From the IMG/VR virus record IMGVR_UViG_3300047094_001410, positions 1 to 30,125 of that record: a DNA stretch of 30,125 bases; one strand, written 5' to 3'. Under the pieces are notes generated by a model. The model had not been told where the DNA came from. It saw nothing but the letters and a program-made list of their open reading frames with translations, and did no database searches. The translations under genes and the position numbers were made by a program. Of the stretch, positions 13,184 through 24,526 are shown piece by piece (position 1 is the stretch's first letter; the number at the start of each line of letters is the position of its first letter). Origin of the DNA: a virus.

Positions 13184-13534
13184 ATGGCTGTTTCTCGAAG
13201 TGATTTCGAATCGTTGGCTATTGGAAAGGTCGAGACATTCCAGAGCGAAACGCTCGGGGTTTCGGTCGATATGCGGCATCCTCTGTTTAGCGAATGGCAC
13301 GCGCTGTGTATGGAGTTGCGGGCGCTGCCGGAGGGCCAGCCGCCCACGGCGGAATTGATGATTCGCACGGTCGCCGCTGTCCTGGTCAATCCGGACGGGA
13401 CGCGAATGTTCGCGCCGGGCGAAACGGCCGCTCTCGACGCTATGGCGCCGGCCCCGCTGTTCGAGCTTTACAAACTGGCCTGGTCCGGGCCGATGCGCGG
13501 GCTGGAGGCTACCGACGACGCAAAAAAAGGTTAG
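13184..13534 (+). CDS. Tail assembly chaperone, short form (G-like)
   Basis: A 116-residue protein ending at TAG 13532-13534. It is largely helical with a conserved-looking MRHPLFSEWHALCMELRALPEGQ centre. Position between tube and tape-measure genes, together with the slippery run at its end, identifies it as the upstream tail assembly chaperone, equivalent to lambda G. These bind the tape measure and recruit tube subunits. It is not a virion protein. A ribosome site AAGGG at about 13171 precedes the ATG. Confidence 0.78.
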   Translation: MAVSRSDFESLAIGKVETFQSETLGVSVDMRHPLFSEWHALCMELRALPEGQPPTAELMIRTVAAVLVNPDGTRMFAPGETAALDAMAPAPLFELYKLAWSGPMRGLEATDDAKKG

Positions 13535-13568
13535 AGCGGGAGCCGGAGCGGCTGTTTCTATTCCGGCT
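13522..13568 (+). promoter_or_regulatory. Programmed -1 frameshift site (A AAA AAA G)
   Basis: The zero frame reads GCA AAA AAA GGT TAG at 13520-13534, so a perfect X XXY YYZ heptamer (A AAA AAA) occupies 13522-13528. After a -1 slip the next codons are AGG TTA GAG, which enter the -1 frame that stays open to 13872. A stem AGCCGG (13541-13546) with CCGGCT (13563-13568) lies 12 bases downstream and may act as the stimulator. Confidence 0.82.
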
Positions 13569-13872
13569 GGCGCTGGCAATGGGAACGGTGGACGTTGACG
13601 GCCTCGCGGAGCGGATGCCTATGGACCTGGTCCGGGAATGGCGGCATTTCTACGACCGGGAACCGTGGGGCGACGATTGGCGGCGAAGCGGGCGAATGGT
13701 CGCGCTATTGGGCGCGGCGCTCGGAGGAAAGACGGGACCGGATTTTGAAACGAAGTTCTCGCCAACCTATCGGGAGGAAGAACCGGAGCCGCCCCGGCCC
13801 CAAACACAGGCGGAGATGATTGCCGAACTGCGAAAGATTCCCGCGTTTGCGAAACAATTGGAAGGCCGCTAA
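13528..13872 (+). CDS. Tail assembly chaperone extension (GT-like, -1 frame)
   Basis: This segment is expressed by the -1 shift as the end of a fusion of about 229 residues beginning at 13184. It adds RLEREPERLFLFRLALAMGTVDVDGLAERMP, MDLVREWRHFYDREPWGDDW and a C-terminal AEMIAELRKIPAFAKQLEGR helix (segments shown to mark domains). The MGxTVDxLxxRMPxxEFxEWxxFYxxEPFG pattern is characteristic of the T part of siphovirus and Mu-like tail chaperones, which bind the tail tube. The open frame starts earlier at 13294, but no ribosome site is seen there, and the upstream part is shadow sequence of the short form. Confidence 0.8.
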   Translation, partial: RLEREPERLFLFRLALAMGTVDVDGLAERMPMDLVREWRHFYDREPWGDDWRRSGRMVALLGAALGGKTGPDFETKFSPTYREEEPEPPRPQTQAEMIAELRKIPAFAKQLEGR

Positions 13873-13875
13873 ATC

Positions 13876-15414
13876 ATGTCCACGTCTAAAATCGCCGCCG
13901 TTTTCACCGCTAATACGGCGGGCCTGGTCGCGGGCACGAAGACGGCGTCGGCGGCTTTCGACAAGCTGGCGAAGGACGTAAAGGGGCTGCGGTCTGGCCT
14001 GGGGACGTTGACGGCCATTTCGGGGGCGCAGCTATTCGGTCAGATTGCGTCGGGTGTCTCGGCGGCCACGCAATCGCTTTACGGAATGTCGGCGGCGGCC
14101 GCGGAGTCGATCGACACGCTATCGAAACTGGCGACGCGGACCGGCCAGACCTATACCGAAATCGCCGGCCTGGCATTGGCTGGAGACCTGGCCGGCGTTG
14201 GCGTCGGAACGATTTCGAACGCGCTCACGAAGGCGGATCGGGCGTTCGTTTTGGCGTCGCAGGGATCGAAAACCGCGGTAAAGGCGTTCTCGGGTATCGG
14301 GCTGGCGCTCGAAGACCTCCAGGGCAAGAGCGGTTCGGAGCGGTTCGAGTTGATAGCGGACGGTATCGCCGCGCTACCGTCGGAAGCGGAGCGGGCCGCG
14401 GCGAGTATCGCGCTATTCGGCAAGGCCGGCGCGGAATTGCTCCCGTTGTTCGCTGGCGGCGGCGAAGGCATCCGGCAGGCGACCGAACAGGCGGAGCGTT
14501 TCGGGCTGGCCGTTACGAACGTCCAGGGAACGAACGTCGAGGCTATGAACGATTCTTGGACGCTCGTAGAAAAGGCGATAGAGGGCGTCGTAACGCAAAT
14601 TACGGCGAACCTGGCCCCGGCCGTTACGGCGCTGAATCAAGCGTTTACGAATTTCGTCGCGGGGTTTGGCGGCAAGAGCATAGGCGAGGCTATCGCGGAC
14701 GCGATTCTGGACGCGGCGGACTATCTGGTCCAGGCGGCGGATTTTGTCGTCGGCAGTATCCCGGCCGTTTTCCGGTTCGCGGAGGGCGTCGGCCAGTATT
14801 GGCAAACGGTCGTCGATCTATTCGGCCGGGCTATGACGTTCGCGCAGGCGGTTTTTAAGTCGTTCGAAGTCGCCGGCAACGCTATCGGCGCCGTTTTGCT
14901 GAACGTCGCGGGCAAGTTTTTCGAATTGATTTCGGCCGCGGCGAGCTATGTACCTGGAGCCGGGGGCTACGCGGAGGAAGCGGCGAAGCTGGCCGCGGCG
15001 TCTAACGAAATGGCGGCGTCCTACGGTCAAGCGATGCTAGATAATTCCTCGGAAGCCGGCCGGCTATTCGGTGAGACATTTGGGGAGCGTGCGAAGGACG
15101 GAACGGAGGGCGTTGCCGGTCCCATCACGACGGCGTTTCGCGGCATTCGCGCCGACATTGAGAAAGCCCGGACGGCTACCGACGAGGTCAAGAAAACGAC
15201 ACTGGACCCAAAACCGCCGGAAGTCAAAATCGACGAAGTGAAAATGGCGAAAGGTCTCGACGCGCGTTCGACGGCCGGCGTGAATGAAATGCTCCGTCTG
15301 ATGACCCCGGACGCCGGGAAACGGACCTACGAAAAAGAGAACGCGGACAACCTCGCGCGTATCGCGGACAATACGGAAGAAATGGGCCTCGAACTGGTCG
15401 AACAGGATTTCTAA
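13876..15414 (+). CDS. Tape measure protein
   Basis: A 512-residue helical Ala/Gly-rich protein that fixes tail length and is ejected with the DNA. It starts three bases after the chaperone extension. The N-terminus (TANTAGLVAGTKTASAAFDKLAKDVKGL) is the usual coiled-coil opening, with LATRTGQTYTEIAGL near 90 typical of phage tape measures. Hydrophobic stretches near residues 250-270 and 330-350 could insert in membranes. A C-terminal charged section (DEVKKTTLDPKPPEVKIDEVK) follows. By the usual rule of about 0.15 nm of tail per residue the tail would be short, near 75-80 nm. No lytic transglycosylase or peptidase motif is seen. Confidence 0.85.
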   Translation: MSTSKIAAVFTANTAGLVAGTKTASAAFDKLAKDVKGLRSGLGTLTAISGAQLFGQIASGVSAATQSLYGMSAAAAESIDTLSKLATRTGQTYTEIAGLALAGDLAGVGVGTISNALTKADRAFVLASQGSKTAVKAFSGIGLALEDLQGKSGSERFELIADGIAALPSEAERAAASIALFGKAGAELLPLFAGGGEGIRQATEQAERFGLAVTNVQGTNVEAMNDSWTLVEKAIEGVVTQITANLAPAVTALNQAFTNFVAGFGGKSIGEAIADAILDAADYLVQAADFVVGSIPAVFRFAEGVGQYWQTVVDLFGRAMTFAQAVFKSFEVAGNAIGAVLLNVAGKFFELISAAASYVPGAGGYAEEAAKLAAASNEMAASYGQAMLDNSSEAGRLFGETFGERAKDGTEGVAGPITTAFRGIRADIEKARTATDEVKKTTLDPKPPEVKIDEVKMAKGLDARSTAGVNEMLRLMTPDAGKRTYEKENADNLARIADNTEEMGLELVEQDF

Positions 15415-15423
15415 GGGGCAGAT

Positions 15424-16302
15424 ATGGCGATCGTAGCCGTTACAGAATCCATCGACGACCGCGGCGTTTCCGGCCGGTTCCGGGACACGATGACCTATTC
15501 GCGTTCCTTCCTGGTGCGCGTCGATGCTCCGTCTACGTCCATCCGCGACATAGCGCAGGCGCCGGGGATCACGTTCGGCTCGGCGCATCCGGACGACGGT
15601 ACGGTTTTCGCGATGGAATTCGACTGTAAGCCGCGCGGCGATACGTTGCTTTTGTACGTCGTCACGGTCAAGTATTCGACCCCGGCGCGCGAGCAAAAGG
15701 CGGACCCGTTCCAACTCCCGGCGGACGTATGGAGCGGCGGCAGTTCGGTAGCTACGGCGCCGTGTTGGCAGGACAAGCAAGGGAACCCGATAACGAATTC
15801 CGCCGGTATCGCGTTGCCTGATCTCACAATGGATACGGCGGAATTCTCGGTTTCGCTAACGCGATGCTACGGGAATTTGTCGTTCCTGGGCATTCTCGCG
15901 AGCGCGACGAATAAGCTCAATTCGGATGCGTTCCTCGGCTGTCCCCCTAACACCTGGAAATGCCAGGGCGGCCGGTTTTCAAAGAAAACGGAAAACGCCG
16001 ACGGCCGGACGTTCGTTTATTGGGAGGTTACTTACGAATTTAACTACCGGGAGGATACATGGTTTCTAAAACCTCTCGACATTGGCTATTCGCAATTGGT
16101 AGATGAGGAAGGCAATCCGACGGGTTCCGGGCAATACACCGCGGCGATTCTCGGCGCAGATAAAAAGCCTATTAAGGAACCCGCGGCCCTATCGGGCGGC
16201 GTCGCTATGGATGCCGGCAATGCTCCGCAAGTCATAAACGACGGCGACGGAGCCAACCCTTACGGTAGCTATCCGTTTTCCGGGTTCGGGAGCATAGGCT
16301 AA
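15424..16302 (+). CDS. Tail tip structural protein, unknown
   Basis: A 292-residue protein with no recognised family. It begins MAIVAVTESIDDRGVSGRF and shows beta-rich sequence with aromatic strands (DTWFLKPLDIGYSQLVDEEG, FVYWEVTYEFNYRE). Three central Cys lie in TRCYGNLSFLG, LGCPPNTWKCQGGRF. The C-terminus is Gly/Asn-rich (DGDGANPYGSYPFSGFGSIG). It lies directly after the tape measure, where distal-tail or baseplate hub proteins are normally encoded, so it probably builds the tail tip. It shares its stop with the start of the next gene (TAATG), pointing to coupled translation. Confidence concerns it being a real gene; the role is positional. Confidence 0.65.
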   Translation: MAIVAVTESIDDRGVSGRFRDTMTYSRSFLVRVDAPSTSIRDIAQAPGITFGSAHPDDGTVFAMEFDCKPRGDTLLLYVVTVKYSTPAREQKADPFQLPADVWSGGSSVATAPCWQDKQGNPITNSAGIALPDLTMDTAEFSVSLTRCYGNLSFLGILASATNKLNSDAFLGCPPNTWKCQGGRFSKKTENADGRTFVYWEVTYEFNYREDTWFLKPLDIGYSQLVDEEGNPTGSGQYTAAILGADKKPIKEPAALSGGVAMDAGNAPQVINDGDGANPYGSYPFSGFGSIG

Positions 16303-17840
16303 TGTCCACGCGCCGCCCGTCGTCTCGAAAGCCCGGCGTTGTGTTCACGCCGGCGGCCGCGGAGCGTATCGCAAGCGCGGTTCGTGCGGTCGAGCGCGGG
16401 GCCGGCCAGCCGGGCGCGGCGCACTGGGCCTACCGCCCGGATGAACCGGGCCGCGACGCGTTTTTTCGGACGCTAACGAAGCTGGAAAGCTGCGGCACGG
16501 TCGAGGCGCAAGAGGTCTACCTTGCGGCGGCGGAATCTGAATCCGGCTGCGGCGCGTCGTTCAAGCTGCAAATGCCGCGCGAAGACCCCGTCGAGGTCCG
16601 TGACGTTTCCTCGGTCGTTTCGCTATTCAATGCGGCGCAGGGCAATCGGTCCGGCGAGAAATTGCCGACGGGGACGGTCGTCGAAGCCCGGTATGAATAT
16701 CCGCGGGACAAAGACGAAAAACCATTCTGGCGCATTCTGCGCGTTATTGATTGCGATTGCGGTTCGTCGTCGTCTTCGTCGTCCAGTTCGTCTTCGTCGT
16801 CTTCGTCGTCTTCGTCGTCTTCAGCGGCTTCCAGTTCGTCGTCTGTTGCGTCGTCTGGCGGTTCGTCTGGCTCCGGCTCGGATGGCTCTGACGACAGTGG
16901 TTCGGGAGACGGCGGTTCGGGCGACGGTTCGGGGGACGGCGGCTCTGGCGACGGGTCGGGCGGCGGCTCGGGTGGCTCGGATTCGGGTGGCTCGGATTCC
17001 GACGGCTCGGGCGACGGTTCGGGCGACGGCGGTTCCGGGAGTAGTGATTCCGCGGGCCGCTGGTATTGCTACATAGTCGGCACTGATTCCGCCGGCGATC
17101 CAATCAAGGAATGCCACGTTCCGGACGATCCAGACGATGAATATGCGGCATGGACGCCCGGCAGTGGGCAGGATCCGCTATTCCCGGAATCCGGCCCCCA
17201 TGCGACCTACGAAGAATGCTTGGAAGCCTGCGGCCCGCCGGATTCGTCGTCGTCGGCTACGGATTCAAGCTATTGGGGCCGCTGGTATTGTTACCAGGTC
17301 GGAACCGACGACGAAGGCAAACCAATCAAGGAATGCCACGTTTCGGACGACGAAAACGACGACGCGGGCCTATGGACGCCGGAGCCGGGCGGGGAACCGC
17401 TGTCGCCGGTCTCTGGCCCCCACGACACGCTCGAAGACTGCGAAGCCGAATGTAATCCGGAGCCGCCTTGGTATTGCTACTGGCCGGACGACGACGAAAC
17501 GAAGGCCGTTTGCCGGCAACCTAACGAGGCGGGCGGATATTGGAACGGCCTGGAGCCTCACGGCGACCCCTGCGAAACCTATGAACAATGCTGCGAAAAC
17601 TGCGCCTGCGCGTCGTCCGGCGGGTCCGGGGACGGAAGCGCTAGCGGTAGCGGCGGCCCCGGTAGCGGCTCGGGTTCCGATGGCGGCCCGGATAGCGGCG
17701 GCTCGGGGTCCGGTGGCGGCTCGGGGTCCGGCGGTTCGAGTCGCGGGGAGTGGCTGGAAGTCGTTACGGACGTGAAATGTGAGGACGGCGAATTGGTCGT
17801 GACGAAAACGAAAATTTGGGCGCGGGTCTGGGAGGACTGA
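16302..17840 (+). CDS. Poly-Ser and Cys-repeat tail-tip protein
   Basis: A 512-residue protein with clear modules. Residues about 1-150 form a compact domain. About 154-250 is low complexity: a near-continuous run of serine, then Gly/Ser/Asp repeats (SGSGDGGSGDG). Three Cys-rich repeats follow (about 255-312, 328-387, 391-436), each starting WYCY and carrying a PIKECHV or AVCRQP element and a closing TYEECLEAC, TLEDCEAEC or TYEQCCENC. A second Ser/Gly linker (about 440-482) leads to a last strand pair (EWLEVVTDVKCEDGELVVTKTKI). This looks like an extended, disulfide-bonded surface protein. It precedes two glycosyltransferases, so its serines are candidate glycosylation sites. No family was recognised. 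Confidence 0.65.
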   Translation: MSTRRPSSRKPGVVFTPAAAERIASAVRAVERGAGQPGAAHWAYRPDEPGRDAFFRTLTKLESCGTVEAQEVYLAAAESESGCGASFKLQMPREDPVEVRDVSSVVSLFNAAQGNRSGEKLPTGTVVEARYEYPRDKDEKPFWRILRVIDCDCGSSSSSSSSSSSSSSSSSSSSAASSSSSVASSGGSSGSGSDGSDDSGSGDGGSGDGSGDGGSGDGSGGGSGGSDSGGSDSDGSGDGSGDGGSGSSDSAGRWYCYIVGTDSAGDPIKECHVPDDPDDEYAAWTPGSGQDPLFPESGPHATYEECLEACGPPDSSSSATDSSYWGRWYCYQVGTDDEGKPIKECHVSDDENDDAGLWTPEPGGEPLSPVSGPHDTLEDCEAECNPEPPWYCYWPDDDETKAVCRQPNEAGGYWNGLEPHGDPCETYEQCCENCACASSGGSGDGSASGSGGPGSGSGSDGGPDSGGSGSGGGSGSGGSSRGEWLEVVTDVKCEDGELVVTKTKIWARVWED

Positions 17841-18685
17841 TGCCGCGAACGACGCGAACAAACCTGGGCGCCTGCGAATGCTGCGGCGGTTCGTCGTCGT
17901 CCGGTTCGTCGTCCGGTTCCGCGTCTGAAAAGCCCGGTTCGTCGTCGTCTATTTCGTCCGGTTCTTCGTCGTCTAGTTCGAGCGGTATCGACTGTAGTGT
18001 TTCTTGTATGCCGCCTTGCCGATTCCCTGGCAACGTCGAGTTGTGGCAGATTACGCCGCGCTCGCCGGAGTTCAAGCGCCGAACGTCGCTACAAGTCGGC
18101 GGGGCGAACGCCGGCATCGTCAATATGGTCGAAAAGGATTGGTTTCAAGCGGGCCGCATTCGCTGGGCGGATGGATACCCGTCCGCGTTCGGGTCGTGCG
18201 CGTATTCTCTCTGGTTTCACGAAAGACGTTCGCGCGGCTCGGGATACGTTGAAGTATGGGAGTATCGGGTTAGTGTTTACGTCGTCGATTGTGATTCGCA
18301 AGAGATGCGCGACGTATCGAAAACGGCGCTGGTCGAACTGGTTGAAGACGGTCGAATTATCAAGGGTTGCCAATCTCCGGACCCGAACAACGAAGACAAC
18401 GTAATACCCTGTTCTGCGGATTCGCCCCCATCGGGTTCTGCGTCGTTGCCTGAGTTTTTATCGACGCCCTATCTGGTTTGTCCGGATAGTCCCGCCTGTG
18501 ATTCGTTGCCGAAGGATTACGGGCAGTGGGAATGGCTCGGAAGTTGGGTCTTGATCGACGGCGGTTGTACGGCGCACGGTTGCAAGGTCGCCCCCGGCCC
18601 CACGAAGCCGGGTACGGTAATTCGCGAAAGGGTTGATGTAGGGTGTGAGGATGTATCGCTTTTCGAGGATAACCCGCTCCCATGA
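17840..18685 (+). CDS. Second Ser-rich tail-tip protein
   Basis: A 281-residue protein read from ATG 17840, which overlaps the previous stop (TGATG) and follows GGAGGA at 17831-17836. After MPRTTRTNLGACECCGG comes a poly-Ser segment (about residues 18-50), much like that of the preceding protein and also written in TCG/TCT codons. A beta-rich body with many Cys follows (CSVSCMPPCRFPGNVELW, FGSCAYSLWFHERR, YRVSVYVVDCDSQEM, YLVCPDSPACDSL, GGCTAHGCKV; about 14 Cys in all). The Cys content suggests disulfides or metal binding in the virion. It probably forms the tail tip or an adhesin with its neighbours. No family was recognised. Confidence 0.65.
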   Translation: MPRTTRTNLGACECCGGSSSSGSSSGSASEKPGSSSSISSGSSSSSSSGIDCSVSCMPPCRFPGNVELWQITPRSPEFKRRTSLQVGGANAGIVNMVEKDWFQAGRIRWADGYPSAFGSCAYSLWFHERRSRGSGYVEVWEYRVSVYVVDCDSQEMRDVSKTALVELVEDGRIIKGCQSPDPNNEDNVIPCSADSPPSGSASLPEFLSTPYLVCPDSPACDSLPKDYGQWEWLGSWVLIDGGCTAHGCKVAPGPTKPGTVIRERVDVGCEDVSLFEDNPLP

Positions 18686-19092
18686 TTACCTGTAATTTTT
18701 TGCACCTTATGAACCGTTGCGCGGAACGCGGCTACACGCTGGCAGAGGTCGCGGCCTGTATCGTCTCGAGAGACGGCGACATGGTCACGGTAGACGTAGA
18801 CAATCCGGCCTATCCGCGGGCCGCGAAGCCGAAACCCAAAGGCGGCGCCGGAACCGAACTGAAAAAGCTATTGGGGCGAATTGGGATTCGGAGTAAGCCG
18901 TCTTGTAGTTGTAACGCGCGTGCGCGAGAGATGGACGCGAAAGGCGTTTTATGGTGCGATAACAACTTGGAAACCGTCGTCGGCTGGCTGCGCGAGGAAA
19001 GCAAGCGCCGGCGGGTTCCGTTCGTCCCCGTAGCGGGGCGGCTTTTGATTCGTCGAGCAATCGCAAATGCCAGGAGGGCGGGCTATGTTTGA
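18682..19092 (+). CDS. Small Cys-containing protein beside glycosyltransferases
   Basis: A 136-residue basic protein starting in the previous stop (ATGA at 18682). The N-terminus reads HLMNRCAERGYTLAEVAACIVSRDGDMVTVD. The second half, GTELKKLLGRIGIRSKPSCSCNARAREMD followed by WCDNNLETVVGWLREESKRR (segments shown as landmarks), resembles short domains found next to glycosyltransferase genes in phage and planctomycete loci, with a CxC pair and a following Cys that may bind a metal. The resemblance is from memory of such loci and no named family can be given. It overlaps the next gene by eight bases, tying it to sugar transfer by context. Confidence 0.6.
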   Translation: MITCNFLHLMNRCAERGYTLAEVAACIVSRDGDMVTVDVDNPAYPRAAKPKPKGGAGTELKKLLGRIGIRSKPSCSCNARAREMDAKGVLWCDNNLETVVGWLREESKRRRVPFVPVAGRLLIRRAIANARRAGYV

Positions 19093-20413
19093 CCGGGTTT
19101 GTGTTATTTCTTTGGATCGCCGGCCGGATCGGCTGGCGTCGTTTTACGCCGGCCTCCCGACGGATTTTCCGTTCGGCAAAGTCGAGGTCGTTCCGGCAAT
19201 CGACGGTTCGAAATGCCGGCATCCGTCATGGTGGCGGCAAGGCGGCGGCGCCTGGGGCTGTTATCGCTCACACGTCCGGATCATCGAAGACGCGTTGAAC
19301 GCCGGACACGAAAGCATTCTCATATTCGAGGACGACGCCACTTTTGCGCCGGGGTTCGCGGCAAAGGCTCGCGAGTATTTGGCGGCGCTCCCGTCCGATT
19401 GGGTCCAGGCGTATTTCGGCGGGCAACACCTCCGGCCGCCGCTGGCGGTTCCCGGTAATCGCCTGGTCGTCCGGGCGTCGAACGTCAATCGAACCCACGC
19501 ATACGCTATCCGCGGCCGCGTCGGAATGCTCCGCCTCTATCGCTGGCTCCACGCGTCGGACCAGTGGAAAAACGGATTTCATATCGATCATCATTACGGC
19601 CGGATGCACAAGGAACAACGGAGCGGGTTTTACGCGCCGGCAAACTGGCTATGCGGCCAGGCGGCCGGGCAGTCGAATATCTCCGGCAAACAAACCGTAG
19701 AAAGATGGTGGAAGGGTCGCGCCGCGGCGGCGGAGCCGGCGGCGGCCGGTTCAACGGCTGAACGGAAGTTCGTCGCGGTGATGGGTCTCCACCGCTCGGG
19801 GTCGTCCGCCTGTGCGATGGTGCTACACAAGCTGGGCGTAAGCATGGGCGACAAGCTGGGGGGCTACGAGGGCCGAAACGGCGGCGGCGGCGAAGCCCGC
19901 GGCCTCGCGGCAATCTGCGAACGGGCCGCGCGGTTCCCGTCCCCGTTGATAACGATGGACCGCCTGGAACTGGCCCGGCAGATTTCCGGCTGGGTCCGTA
20001 GGCGGTTCATTGGCCGGACGATTGCCGGCGGAAAATACCCCCATCTGTGCGCGATGGGGCCGGAACTGGTCGAGGCGGCCGGCGACGCGTTGCGGGTAGT
20101 CGTCTGCGATCGGCCGCTAGATGAGTCGATAGAAAGCCTCCGGCGTCGCTCGAAGGACGCGAAAGGCTGGCTCGCGATTACGGACGCGGAGGCGGAGGCG
20201 GTCCAGCGGTGGCTATCGCAGGAACGGGAAGCGTTCCTGCGGACGTTCCCCGCGGAGCGTGTCTACCGCGTCGATTGGCGGGCAATGCAGGAAGACCCCG
20301 CGGCGGTCGTCGGGGAGTTAGTCGAATTCCTCGGGATGGAGCCGACGGCCGCGCAGCTATCGGCCGCCGTCGCTCATATCAAAACGGGGGAGCCTTGCGC
20401 CGTTGCTTGCTAG
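19085..20413 (+). CDS. GT25 glycosyltransferase fused to sulfotransferase-like domain
   Basis: A 442-residue protein from ATG 19085, six bases after AGGAGGG; the ATG at 19067 is less well placed. Residues 1-210 form a GT25-type glycosyltransferase: VISLDRRPDR (7-16), GAWGCYRSH (55-63), the metal/nucleotide-sugar motif FEDD (81-84), and the late GQSNISGK segment (195-202). After an Ala/Pro linker, residues about 228-442 resemble a sulfotransferase: the PAPS-type P-loop GLHRSGSSA (234-242), then VVCDRPLDESIESLRRRSKD and YRVDWRAMQEDP, typical of the PAPS-binding and 3'-phosphate strands. The fusion suggests transfer of a sugar and then of sulfate. The P-loop domain could instead be a kinase-like enzyme. 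It sits right after serine-rich tail genes. Confidence 0.78.
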   Translation: MFDRVCVISLDRRPDRLASFYAGLPTDFPFGKVEVVPAIDGSKCRHPSWWRQGGGAWGCYRSHVRIIEDALNAGHESILIFEDDATFAPGFAAKAREYLAALPSDWVQAYFGGQHLRPPLAVPGNRLVVRASNVNRTHAYAIRGRVGMLRLYRWLHASDQWKNGFHIDHHYGRMHKEQRSGFYAPANWLCGQAAGQSNISGKQTVERWWKGRAAAAEPAAAGSTAERKFVAVMGLHRSGSSACAMVLHKLGVSMGDKLGGYEGRNGGGGEARGLAAICERAARFPSPLITMDRLELARQISGWVRRRFIGRTIAGGKYPHLCAMGPELVEAAGDALRVVVCDRPLDESIESLRRRSKDAKGWLAITDAEAEAVQRWLSQEREAFLRTFPAERVYRVDWRAMQEDPAAVVGELVEFLGMEPTAAQLSAAVAHIKTGEPCAVAC

Positions 20414-21141
20414 TTCTGAACGTCGGCGGGAAGTCGCTGTTTCCCCCTTCGCGGCGGTCGCTGGAACACGCGGCGCGCCGTTGGGACTGCGATTTCGTTG
20501 AAGTCCGGCAACGGGTCGCCCCGGTTCATATCTTTTGGCAAAAGCTGTTCGCGCCGCTGGTCGTCCAAAAGTATTCGCGCGTTCTGCAAATGGACGCGGA
20601 CGTATTGATTCGCTCGGATGCTCCGAACCCGTTCGGCCTGGTCCCGGAAACGTCGTTCGGGGTCGTCACGGCGGACCAGGCGAACGTCCTACCGCTACGG
20701 CCGTTCCGGGCGGAGGCGGCGGGCCTTTGGGCGGATCGGCTCGGGGTTCCGCGCGTTGACGATCCGGCCCGGCTGTTGAATGCCGGGCTGTTGCTCTATT
20801 CGCCCGCGATTCATGGCGGCGTCTTTTCCCGCGCTCGAGCCTGCGGCGAGGCTTACGGCTGGGATCATTCGGGCGTTGCCGATCAGTCGTCGCTCTCGGC
20901 GCTGTTGGCGGCCGGCGCGGCCCCGGTGGAATGGCTACCGGAGACCTGGAACGCGATACGGCCGGCGGCCCATTGCCCCCGCGGGAAAGGCGTTACCCCG
21001 ATGACGGATTTTGTTTGGCATTTCATCGGGCCGCGGCGCCGGGCGTCGAGGATTGCCGGCACGCGCTGGCGCGTCATGCCAGACGATGAATCCGCGGCGC
21101 CGCCGGCGGTCGAATCCGCGGTAGAGCGTCAATTGGCTTGA
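20395..21141 (+). CDS. GT8-like glycosyltransferase
   Basis: About 248 residues, read from a TTG at 20395 that follows GGGGGAG; a second TTG at 20407 is possible, and no ATG fits. The frame is open further upstream, but there it is only a shadow of the preceding gene. Features of a GT-A enzyme of the GT8 type: LLVLNVGGKSLFPPSRRSLEHAARRW at the start, then WQKLFAPLVVQKYSRVLQMDADVLI with the DxD metal motif, NAGLLLYSPA, the VADQSSLSALL segment, and WHFIG (His ligand). It overlaps the GT25 gene by 19 bases. Its last 68 bases overlap the end of the convergent integrase gene. It probably adds a second sugar in the same decoration pathway. Confidence 0.72.
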   Translation: MRRCLLVLNVGGKSLFPPSRRSLEHAARRWDCDFVEVRQRVAPVHIFWQKLFAPLVVQKYSRVLQMDADVLIRSDAPNPFGLVPETSFGVVTADQANVLPLRPFRAEAAGLWADRLGVPRVDDPARLLNAGLLLYSPAIHGGVFSRARACGEAYGWDHSGVADQSSLSALLAAGAAPVEWLPETWNAIRPAAHCPRGKGVTPMTDFVWHFIGPRRRASRIAGTRWRVMPDDESAAPPAVESAVERQLA

Positions 21142-21982
21142 CCCCCCCGGCCCCCACTATGCGCGGATCGATGTAGCTACGGCGCGTGACCCTATCGGAG
21201 CTATGTCCTAGATATTTTGTCGCCGCGTCCACGCTACCCGTCGCGGCCGCTAGATGGCTGGCTGTCGTCCGGCGAAGGCAATGAAACATAACGTCGCGGC
21301 CCGTTCCTAGCCCGGCCCGGCCCGTGATCTTGTGAAAATGGTTGTAGATGCCGCTCGGGTCCATCGGCCATAGGAAAAGCGTCGCGGCGTCGTGTCTGGC
21401 GGCGATTTCGACAAGCCGGCAAGTATCGGCCGAAAACTCGTAGATTCGCTCGGTCCGTTTTCCCTTGCGAACGCTGGCGGGAACGCGAAGGAACGGCGCC
21501 GTGTAGCACGATTTCGGGACGTGTAGCATTGCCTCGATACGCTCCCCCGATTCGTAAAGTGCCATCAAAACGGCCGGCCAAAACGCGCCGGCCGCCACCG
21601 GGCCGATCCAGCCGGGCGTATCCTCGGCGGCGGCGTATAGGCGCTCGAGTTCCGCGACGGTGAAAGCCCGCGGGGTCCGCTCGGGAAGTAGTTCCGCCTG
21701 GACGCATGGGCGGGTATCGACGAGGCGGCGGTCGGCGGCGAGCCGCCATAGCGCGAGCAATCCGGAACGCTCCCGTTCGACGGAGTACGGCGACAATTTC
21801 GCGCCGCGATGGGCTAGGAATTGCGAAACGGTCAAGTCGTCGAAATCCTCTAGCGTCGCGTCGCGCCGGAGGAATTTCCCGTATTGGCGGATCGCGTGTT
21901 CGAGCAATCGGACGGAGTTATGGCTACGGCCGCGGAGTCGGAGCGGAACGTATATCGAATGGAGGAAGTCGCGGAGCGTCAT
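21074..21982 (-). CDS. int: Tyrosine recombinase integrase
   Basis: A 302-residue site-specific recombinase that would integrate the phage into the host chromosome and, with a directionality factor, excise it. The N-terminal core-binding domain occupies about residues 1-95. The catalytic domain shows all usual residues: R148 in ESGERIEAML, K173/K175 in RKGKR, H234 and R237 in FHCLRRT, H260 in YLGHSS, and nucleophile Y270 in RRSYIDP. Length is slightly short but complete. It is the only confident minus-strand gene, divergent from the early genes, which fits a temperate switch. A run of seven C on the + strand (21142-21148) lies just after the tyrosine codon. Confidence 0.93.
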   Translation of the reverse strand: MTLRDFLHSIYVPLRLRGRSHNSVRLLEHAIRQYGKFLRRDATLEDFDDLTVSQFLAHRGAKLSPYSVERERSGLLALWRLAADRRLVDTRPCVQAELLPERTPRAFTVAELERLYAAAEDTPGWIGPVAAGAFWPAVLMALYESGERIEAMLHVPKSCYTAPFLRVPASVRKGKRTERIYEFSADTCRLVEIAARHDAATLFLWPMDPSGIYNHFHKITGRAGLGTGRDVMFHCLRRTTASHLAAATGSVDAATKYLGHSSDRVTRRSYIDPRIVGAGGVKPIDALPRIRPPAAPRIHRLA

Positions 21983-22066
21983 GGATGCACCTATTTTGGC
22001 GCGCTTCCATGCGCAGGAAAGTTTTTTCGTCGCTAGGTTGAGGGGCTACGCGGGGGGGGTCGTTTT

Positions 22067-22095
22067 GTTATGCGGTGGGGAACGGTCGTCCGCAA
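22067..22095 (-). promoter_or_regulatory. Candidate integrase promoter
   Basis: On the minus strand TTGCGG (complement of 22090-22095), a 17-base spacer and CATAAC (complement of 22067-22072) form a reasonable sigma70 pair about 85 bases before the integrase ATG at 21982. It does not contain the CTAACG element of the rightward promoters. Confidence 0.4.
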
Positions 22096-22207
22096 TGCGC
22101 CGGTCGATCGGATTGCGTTCGGTTTATGGGTCGCGCGTCGCGATTCCTGTCCCCGCCATTTGGATTTTGGATGTAGCGGAACGAATCCGGAACAGGATTC
22201 GAAGTCC

Positions 22208-23506: not shown

Positions 23507-23721
23507 CGCAAGTAGTGAGCGTGTTCGAAGACGCCAGCGCTGTTCGGCTGGCGGAAGACGTTGACGCGGGGCGGATGACCGCAACTCAAGCGGTCCGCAT
23601 CGCAATGGCTACGGGGCGTATTCAAGGGCTCTACATGAGCGGAAACCAAATCGCACGGGAGGCCGGGATCGTGTGCGACTTCAACAAAACCCGGCGCGGA
23701 GCTAACGGTAACGATGAGTAA
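23503..23721 (+). CDS. Small early protein, unknown
   Basis: A 72-residue protein from ATG 23503 (ATGA overlap). It reads MTQVVSVFEDASAVRLAEDVDAG, then RMTATQAVRIAMATGRIQGLYMSGNQIAREAG. The second part could be a small helix-turn-helix, but it is not convincing. No family was recognised. The last eight bases overlap the RecT-like gene, whose upstream CTAACGGTAACG lies inside this reading frame. Position makes it part of the recombination operon. Confidence 0.5.
   Translation: MTQVVSVFEDASAVRLAEDVDAGRMTATQAVRIAMATGRIQGLYMSGNQIAREAGIVCDFNKTRRGANGNDE
23702..23713 (+). promoter_or_regulatory. Operator-like repeat at the RecT start codon
   Basis: CTAACGGTAACG ends right at the ATG at 23714. It resembles the CTAACGCTAACG element with one change. 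No promoter boxes fit around it. If bound on DNA it would act as a roadblock or extra site; a chance match inside coding sequence is also possible. Confidence 0.35.
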
Positions 23722-24526
23722 CGAACTGACGACGACAAAGGCGGCGGATATGTCGGGGCTGGCGGCATCCGGGGAGCATGCGGTCAAGACGGGCATGCTG
23801 CCGGACCATATCAAAACCGGCTGGCAGTTTGCGGTAATCGCAGCCGCGGGCCACGAAATGGGAATGCAACCCATGCGGGCGATCCGCAGTCTGGCAATGG
23901 TCAAAGGCAAGGTGATCGAAGCGGCGGATAGCCAGTTGGCGCGGTTCAAGACTGCCGGCGGCCGGTCGGAGTTTGAAACACTCGACGACCAGCGCGCGGT
24001 TCTCCATCTGGTGCACCCCAACGGCGACAAGCACACGGAGACGTTTACCCTTGAGGACGCCAAACGGGCGGGCCTGGAGTCGAACGCGAACTACAAAAAG
24101 TTCCCCCGCGCCATGCTCCGCAGTCGGGCGATCACCGCGGGCCTTAAGTCGATCGGCTGGGAAGGCGCCGTCGGGGCATATGACCCGGAGGAACTACCGG
24201 CGGAGGCTGCGGCCCCGGCCTCCGCCCCGATTGAATACCGCCCGCGCGGCGGCAAGCCTCCGAAGACGGTCACGGCGGAGCGGCTGGAGGAACTGGCGAT
24301 AGCACCGAAACCGCCGGCCCCCGCGGGCGGAGACGCGTTCATGGCGGCGCTGGCGGCCGCACAGACGGCGGCAACGCTCGACGAGTGCGACGCGATCCGC
24401 CGCAAGTTGGATGCGACGAAAACGGCGGGCCGCATTACCGCCGAGGAATTCAAGGACGTAGCGGCGGCGCTCCAGGATCGGGCGAACGAACTGATTGTAA
24501 AGACGGAGGGCGCCGTTGATGGCTGA
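23714..24526 (+). CDS. recT: RecT-like single-strand annealing protein
   Basis: A 270-residue protein. The N-terminal two-thirds show the RecT-type pattern: an early helix (AVKTGMLPDHIKTGWQFAVIAAAGHEMGMQPMRAI), a KGKVIEAADSQLARFKTAG segment, strands around HTETFTLEDAKRAGL, then YKKFPRAMLRSRAITAGLKSIGWEGAVGAYDPEEL (segments shown as landmarks). This last block with W/F-P-xx-ML-xx-RA and a late YxxEE is the family signature. RecT/Beta-type proteins anneal complementary single strands during phage recombination and replication. The remaining third is Ala/Pro-rich and then helical. No partner exonuclease was recognised in the window. RusA further downstream would resolve the junctions. Confidence 0.7.
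   Translation: MSNELTTTKAADMSGLAASGEHAVKTGMLPDHIKTGWQFAVIAAAGHEMGMQPMRAIRSLAMVKGKVIEAADSQLARFKTAGGRSEFETLDDQRAVLHLVHPNGDKHTETFTLEDAKRAGLESNANYKKFPRAMLRSRAITAGLKSIGWEGAVGAYDPEELPAEAAAPASAPIEYRPRGGKPPKTVTAERLEELAIAPKPPAPAGGDAFMAALAAAQTAATLDECDAIRRKLDATKTAGRITAEEFKDVAAALQDRANELIVKTEGAVDG

Follow-up and report, generated by a model that had tools for sequence, protein, structure and literature searches.

We present here a gene cassette from a 30,125-nucleotide stretch of viral DNA (positions 1 to 30,125 of IMG/VR virus record IMGVR_UViG_3300047094_001410; here, the window), in which a gene for a fusion of a GT25 glycosyltransferase and a sulfotransferase shares a chain of overlapping genes with two serine-rich tail protein genes. 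We propose, with a probability of about 0.56, that the cassette O-glycosylates and sulfates these tail proteins. To our knowledge, few cases of phage virion glycosylation are known. Neither a glycosyltransferase-sulfotransferase fusion tied to serine-rich tail genes nor phage virion sulfation was found reported in the open-licence literature. For phage sulfotransferases, the fusion family offers a concrete candidate substrate: the serine-rich tail proteins whose genes adjoin the enzyme gene in dozens of phages, some of them prophages of cultured planctomycetes. If the proposal is correct, phage surfaces would have a new chemistry, that of sulfated glycans, with consequences for adsorption and protection, and the fusions would serve as compact tools to produce sulfated glycoproteins in bacteria.

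A preliminary description of the window had claimed a protein joining a GT25-type domain to a sulfotransferase-like domain, and the protein is as described. In the 442-residue open reading frame (ORF), FEDD occupies residues 81 to 84 and GLHRSGSS residues 234 to 241. Both domains exceed curated Pfam cut-offs (PF01755, residues 6 to 102, 30.7 bits versus 24; PF13469 [Sulfotransfer_3], residues 291 to 419, 31.3 bits versus 27), and dozens of relatives retain the fusion, which is thus well beyond chance. The ORF starts at ATG 19085, preceded by AGGAGGGCGGGCT; a second in-frame ATG lies at 19067. An AlphaFold2 model of the fusion, built from 14 relatives, had a mean predicted local distance difference test (pLDDT) score of 84 and a low predicted template modeling score (0.52), such that the model does not fix how the two halves sit relative to each other.

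Residues 1 to 202 of the predicted structure best matched the human collagen galactosyltransferase COLGALT1 (Z, 20.8; root mean square deviation, 2.6; 195 residues), followed by mimivirus R655 (Z, 17.3) and bacterial beta-1,4-galactosyltransferases. E82, D83, and D84 are invariant in 14 divergent sequences and align with the EDD of COLGALT1. COLGALT1 and R655, both GT25 proteins, are the best matches of this half in sequence and in fold, and COLGALT1 glycosylates protein side chains; here, in contrast, there is no hydroxylysine substrate, and the GT25 domain is fused to a sulfotransferase.

The preliminary description had named structure comparison beforehand as the test that could place the second domain outside the enzymes that depend on 3′-phosphoadenosine 5′-phosphosulfate (PAPS). 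The comparison placed it among them, and sequence and fold agree. Residues ~226 to 442 matched TPST1 (Z, 15.4; 190 residues), TPST2, and mycobacterial STF1 and STF9 (Z, 15.4; 212 residues), all with Z values of ~15, whereas adenylate kinases ranked below these PAPS sulfotransferases (Z, 12.7). In a profile alignment with TPST2, HRSGSS corresponds to the P-loop PRSGTT, KYP to KDP, and R343...S351 to the R...S of the 3′-phosphate site. K317, R343, and S351 of the PAPS site are invariant in 19 sequences sharing 33 to 90% identity, and the phosphosulfate loop is nearly so. Nei-Gojobori ratios of nonsynonymous to synonymous substitution were 0.07 to 0.15 for the GT25 half and 0.09 to 0.24 for the sulfotransferase half; both are therefore under purifying selection. 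The two folds are almost certainly as assigned, and both domains are very likely active enzymes. PAPS synthesis requires adenosine 5′-phosphosulfate (APS) kinase, which is encoded in all six of the six fusion-carrying genomes, so that a supply of PAPS is plausible. Stand-alone phage proteins of OM43 phages and Synechococcus phage S-SRM01 belong to the same family, Sulfotransfer_3; fusion to GT25 is not described for them, and the function of phage sulfotransferases is called unclear (PMC10580990).

A profile search recovered 62 viral and 36 bacterial loci, and the two-domain fusions from viral contigs and bacterial genomes form 47 clusters at 90% identity. Nearly all bacterial loci are titled Planctomycetota; the exceptions are one Nevskiales and one Spongiibacteraceae metagenome-assembled genome. 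Three loci on chromosomes of cultured strains (L097, L100, and L102) belong to prophages; genes for a tape measure, neck, or major tail protein are found close to them. Cultured carriers of the fusion include Rhodopirellula rubra CECT 8075 (L099) and strains SV_7m_r and K23_9. A match to the fusion was obtained in 6 of the 294 Planctomycetota genomes sampled, so that it is a mobile gene and not part of the core genome. The host of the window virus is probably a planctomycete, judging from the relatives of the fusion. No fusion covering the whole query was found in annotated phage records, where the best matches cover the GT25 half only. A quick tree needs 2 to 7 changes and does not establish a single origin of the fusion.

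The fusion is closely associated with serine-rich proteins. A serine-rich neighbor was defined as an ORF with at least 50% serine in 30 residues, on the same strand, at most 4 kb upstream or 1.5 kb downstream of the fusion. Such a neighbor occurs in 39 of 43 evaluable clusters at 90% identity and in 19 of 21 at 70%; as a control, 400 kb of chromosome (twenty 20-kb stretches from three host chromosomes) contained one serine-rich ORF. The link is far stronger than the window by itself could reveal, as it is seen again in widely differing phages and with several unrelated kinds of serine-rich protein. One large family of partners may be held together in part by the serine tracts themselves; the remaining partners form several families among which no similarity was detected. 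ORF-based counting was used for the control since a TCN-repeat DNA pattern, tried for genome-wide poly-serine, also matched antisense Asp/Glu repeats. The tract of serine-rich tail protein 1 mixes six different serine codons, which indicates that poly-serine is kept at the protein level and rules out DNA slippage as its source.

A converse search used the non-repetitive N-terminal domain of the serine-rich tail proteins, and it yielded 50 serine-poor tail protein loci with 1.2 kb or more of downstream sequence. None of the 50 gave a match to GT25, to the sulfotransferase, or to a partner-type enzyme. Among serine-rich loci, five of seven carry the fusion, and all five had been recovered in the fusion search. 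The converse test thus supports the link between the fusion and serine-rich proteins, its positive side not being independent. A search with the tail protein at 15424 alone returned only five loci.

Within the window, genes overlap at every junction of the chain from serine-rich tail protein 1 to the enzyme that follows the fusion, downstream of the tape-measure gene (Table 1), and a scan of 13500-22100 confined to sigma-70-like promoters found none. The reported coupling of the enzymes with two poly-serine proteins in one chain therefore stands, while the placement of these proteins at the tail tip is drawn from gene order only and is best read as provisional. The enzyme after the fusion (ORF 20395-21141) starts at TTG 20395, preceded by GGGGGAG, and its 19-base overlap with the fusion gene was confirmed. 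It had been called GT8-like. It has a predicted GT-A fold (pLDDT, 90) and an invariant DxD motif and resembles A64R, glycogenin, and LgtC, but no Pfam family matched it, so that membership of the Pfam GT8 family is not clear. Its best solved match is A64R, the capsid glycosyltransferase of Paramecium bursaria chlorella virus 1 (PBCV-1; PDB 2p6w/2p73; Z, 17.0; 9% identity), and WbbM, glycogenin, GlyE, and LgtC follow (Z, ~14 to 15). Like the role proposed for the partner, A64R is a viral enzyme acting on a virion protein; PBCV-1, however, is an algal virus, and the window enzyme may use another sugar and substrate.

The genes at this place vary among loci. In three, a GT-A-like partner and a Methyltransf_24 domain form one protein (L015, 9290-10504; L022, 9310-10554; L104, 10299-11579), and in L110 (10370-11551) a second GT25 domain is fused to Methyltransf_24; by sequence, these fusions suggest O-methylated glycans. 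A Stealth-GT61 gene takes the place of the partner gene in L016, and in L097 a pair of GT2 genes comes after the fusion, together with a radical SAM gene. In L096 (10350-10955) and L112 (2762-3367), a 201-residue protein starting CxHVGKTGGVHVHR and matching no Pfam family follows the fusion; by eye, it resembles another sulfotransferase. No serine-rich ORF was found near the fusions of these two loci.

We propose the following mechanism. The locus would be a late-expressed virion-modification cassette in which the overlapping genes yield the serine-rich tail proteins first. The GT25 half of the fusion would then place a sugar, probably a hexose from a uridine diphosphate sugar, on serine side chains of the tracts, or extend a first sugar; the GT-A partner would add another, and the C-terminal half would move sulfate from PAPS onto the resulting glycan. 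The outcome would be a tail with a brush of sulfated, negatively charged sugars, which could guard the tracts against proteolysis, change adsorption, or shield the tip. The serine-rich tail proteins are probably the substrate. Placement of the sulfate on the added glycan, including the acceptor and the order of steps, is the least certain part, and the identity of the sugar and the biological role are inferred, not directly observed. More broadly, and tentatively, planctomycete phages may make sulfated, proteoglycan-like tails with the fusion and interchangeable partners (GT-A, methyltransferase, Stealth/GT61, and GT2), possibly the first virion sulfation by a phage enzyme.

Several observations weigh against this proposal. 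Four of the 43 fusion clusters have no serine-rich neighbor within 4 kb, and 10 of the 50 fusion-less serine-poor tail protein loci have a serine-rich ORF nearby. Serine-rich loci L227 and L236 lack the fusion and carry GT4 and GT2 instead. GT2-type genes also follow serine-poor tail protein homologues (12 of 81 downstream ORFs), so that tail-end glycosyltransferases are not confined to serine-rich phages; the wider claim that any glycosyltransferase marks serine-rich loci was accordingly dropped in favor of the GT25-sulfotransferase family. Neither a sulfotransferase nor a glycosyltransferase fold fixes the acceptor. The window cassette also ends beside an integrase, a usual site of lysogenic-conversion genes.

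Lysogenic conversion is a real rival, although we judge it unlikely: the enzymes would add sugar and sulfate to a host surface polysaccharide or glycoprotein, blocking superinfection or altering adsorption, and the virion would not be the substrate. The late region ends with the cassette, next to the integrase; this position and the three prophage loci of cultured strains fit this explanation, as does the inclusion in GT25 of lipopolysaccharide enzymes; lipopolysaccharide sulfotransferases such as LpsS also exist (PMC12445080). It leaves the tie to serine-rich tail proteins in 39 of 43 clusters unexplained, and the fusion also adjoins a serine-rich ORF on a 186-kb viral contig (L022). Conversion genes are usually under their own expression, whereas the cassette genes overlap tail genes and the promoter scan gave no candidate site; none of the cassette genes was recognised as encoding a membrane or flippase-type protein.

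Tyrosylprotein sulfotransferases are among the nearest solved structures of the sulfotransferase half, and five related loci (L077-L079, L082, and L084) keep a GT25 gene without a sulfotransferase beside serine-rich ORFs. Both observations would suit an arrangement in which the glycosyltransferases act on the serine-rich tail proteins, while the acceptor of the sulfotransferase half is a different one (peptide Tyr/Ser, a lipid, or a small molecule) and the fusion serves co-regulation only. Fusions that differ by more than 50% still keep the two domains joined and both under constraint, which favors linked reactions and makes this arrangement rather improbable. That one or both domains are non-catalytic structural or binding modules is very improbable; glycosyltransferase folds without a known catalytic role occur in virions, and the vaccinia H3 envelope protein is among the fold matches, yet in each half the columns of the catalytic motifs rank with the best conserved of the alignment. 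A cassette coexpressed with the tail and acting on the adjoining serine-rich proteins best explains the gene order, the co-occurrence, and the changing partner enzymes.

Known systems offer partial parallels. In mycobacteriophages Che8 and Rita, glycans on structural proteins of the virion have been tied to phage glycosyltransferases (Freeman et al. 2023, cited in PMC11256854). As proposed for the window, the enzymes are phage encoded and virion proteins are involved; in contrast to the proposal, the capsid is reported to be modified rather than serine-rich tail proteins, and the source consulted mentions no sulfotransferase fusion. Staphylococcal SdgA and SdgB glycosylate Ser-Asp repeats stepwise, which protects against proteases (PMC3794999). 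They resemble the proposed cassette in acting on low-complexity, serine-rich surface proteins and differ in being bacterial N-acetylglucosamine enzymes without sulfation.

Table 1. Positions in the window of the cassette and neighboring genes
Feature	Position	Strand	Basis or remarks
Tail tape-measure protein	13876..15414	+	Start of tail module; PHROG tape-measure families, E 2.5e-30
Conserved tail gene after tape measure	15424..16302	+	Relatives found; related loci keep same order
Serine-rich tail protein 1, proposed substrate	16302..17840	+	512 residues, 89 Ser, 20-Ser run after DCDCG; homologues upstream of fusion in related loci
Serine-rich tail protein 2, proposed substrate	17840..18685	+	ATG 17840; GACECCGG before Ser tract; C-terminus NPLP
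Small conserved protein between serine-rich genes and fusion	18682..19092	+	136 residues; same-place homologues in L003, L005, L009, L013, L015
GT25-sulfotransferase fusion	19085..20413	+	442 residues; Pfam, alignments, structure
GT25 domain	19085..19714	+	Residues 1-210, FEDD at 81-84; PF01755; COLGALT1 fold match
Sulfotransferase domain	19760..20410	+	Residues 226-442, HRSGSS 236-241, GGKYPHLCAM 315-324, R343, S351; PF13469; TPST/STF fold; aligned PAPS motifs
GT-A glycosyltransferase (predicted)	20395..21141	+	248 residues, TTG start, QMDAD motif; model pLDDT 90; PBCV-1 A64R fold match
Tyrosine integrase, convergent with cassette	21074..21982	-	PF00589, 38 bits versus cut-off 27.1

Beyond the cassette, the window encodes a RecT-like single-strand annealing protein (23714-24526; PHROG E 2.4e-9). 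In L227 (4165-9298) and L236 (9001-14879), the genes after that for the serine-rich tail protein include ones for GT4 and GT2 glycosyltransferases and one of radical SAM type. Sixteen ORFs end in NPLP (18671-18685 in the window; also in L008, L010, L029-L033, L035, L041, L042, and L046). The proteins are otherwise different, mostly serine rich, and encoded beside the fusion, and their synonymous codons and stop codons vary; NPLP is a possible C-terminal recognition or assembly tag. Many different serine-rich proteins, including both in the window, carry a cysteine cluster (DCDCG, ECECG, or CxCCG) directly before the first poly-serine run, and at least two cysteines occur in the 12 residues before the run in 45 of 94 distinct contexts. 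A Hint-like (hedgehog/intein) domain lies between serine tracts in L067 (5833-7488) and L106 (6480-8261), with Pfam scores below cut-offs, and was seen by eye in L070, L103, and L105; self-cleavage of these serine-rich tail proteins is possible.
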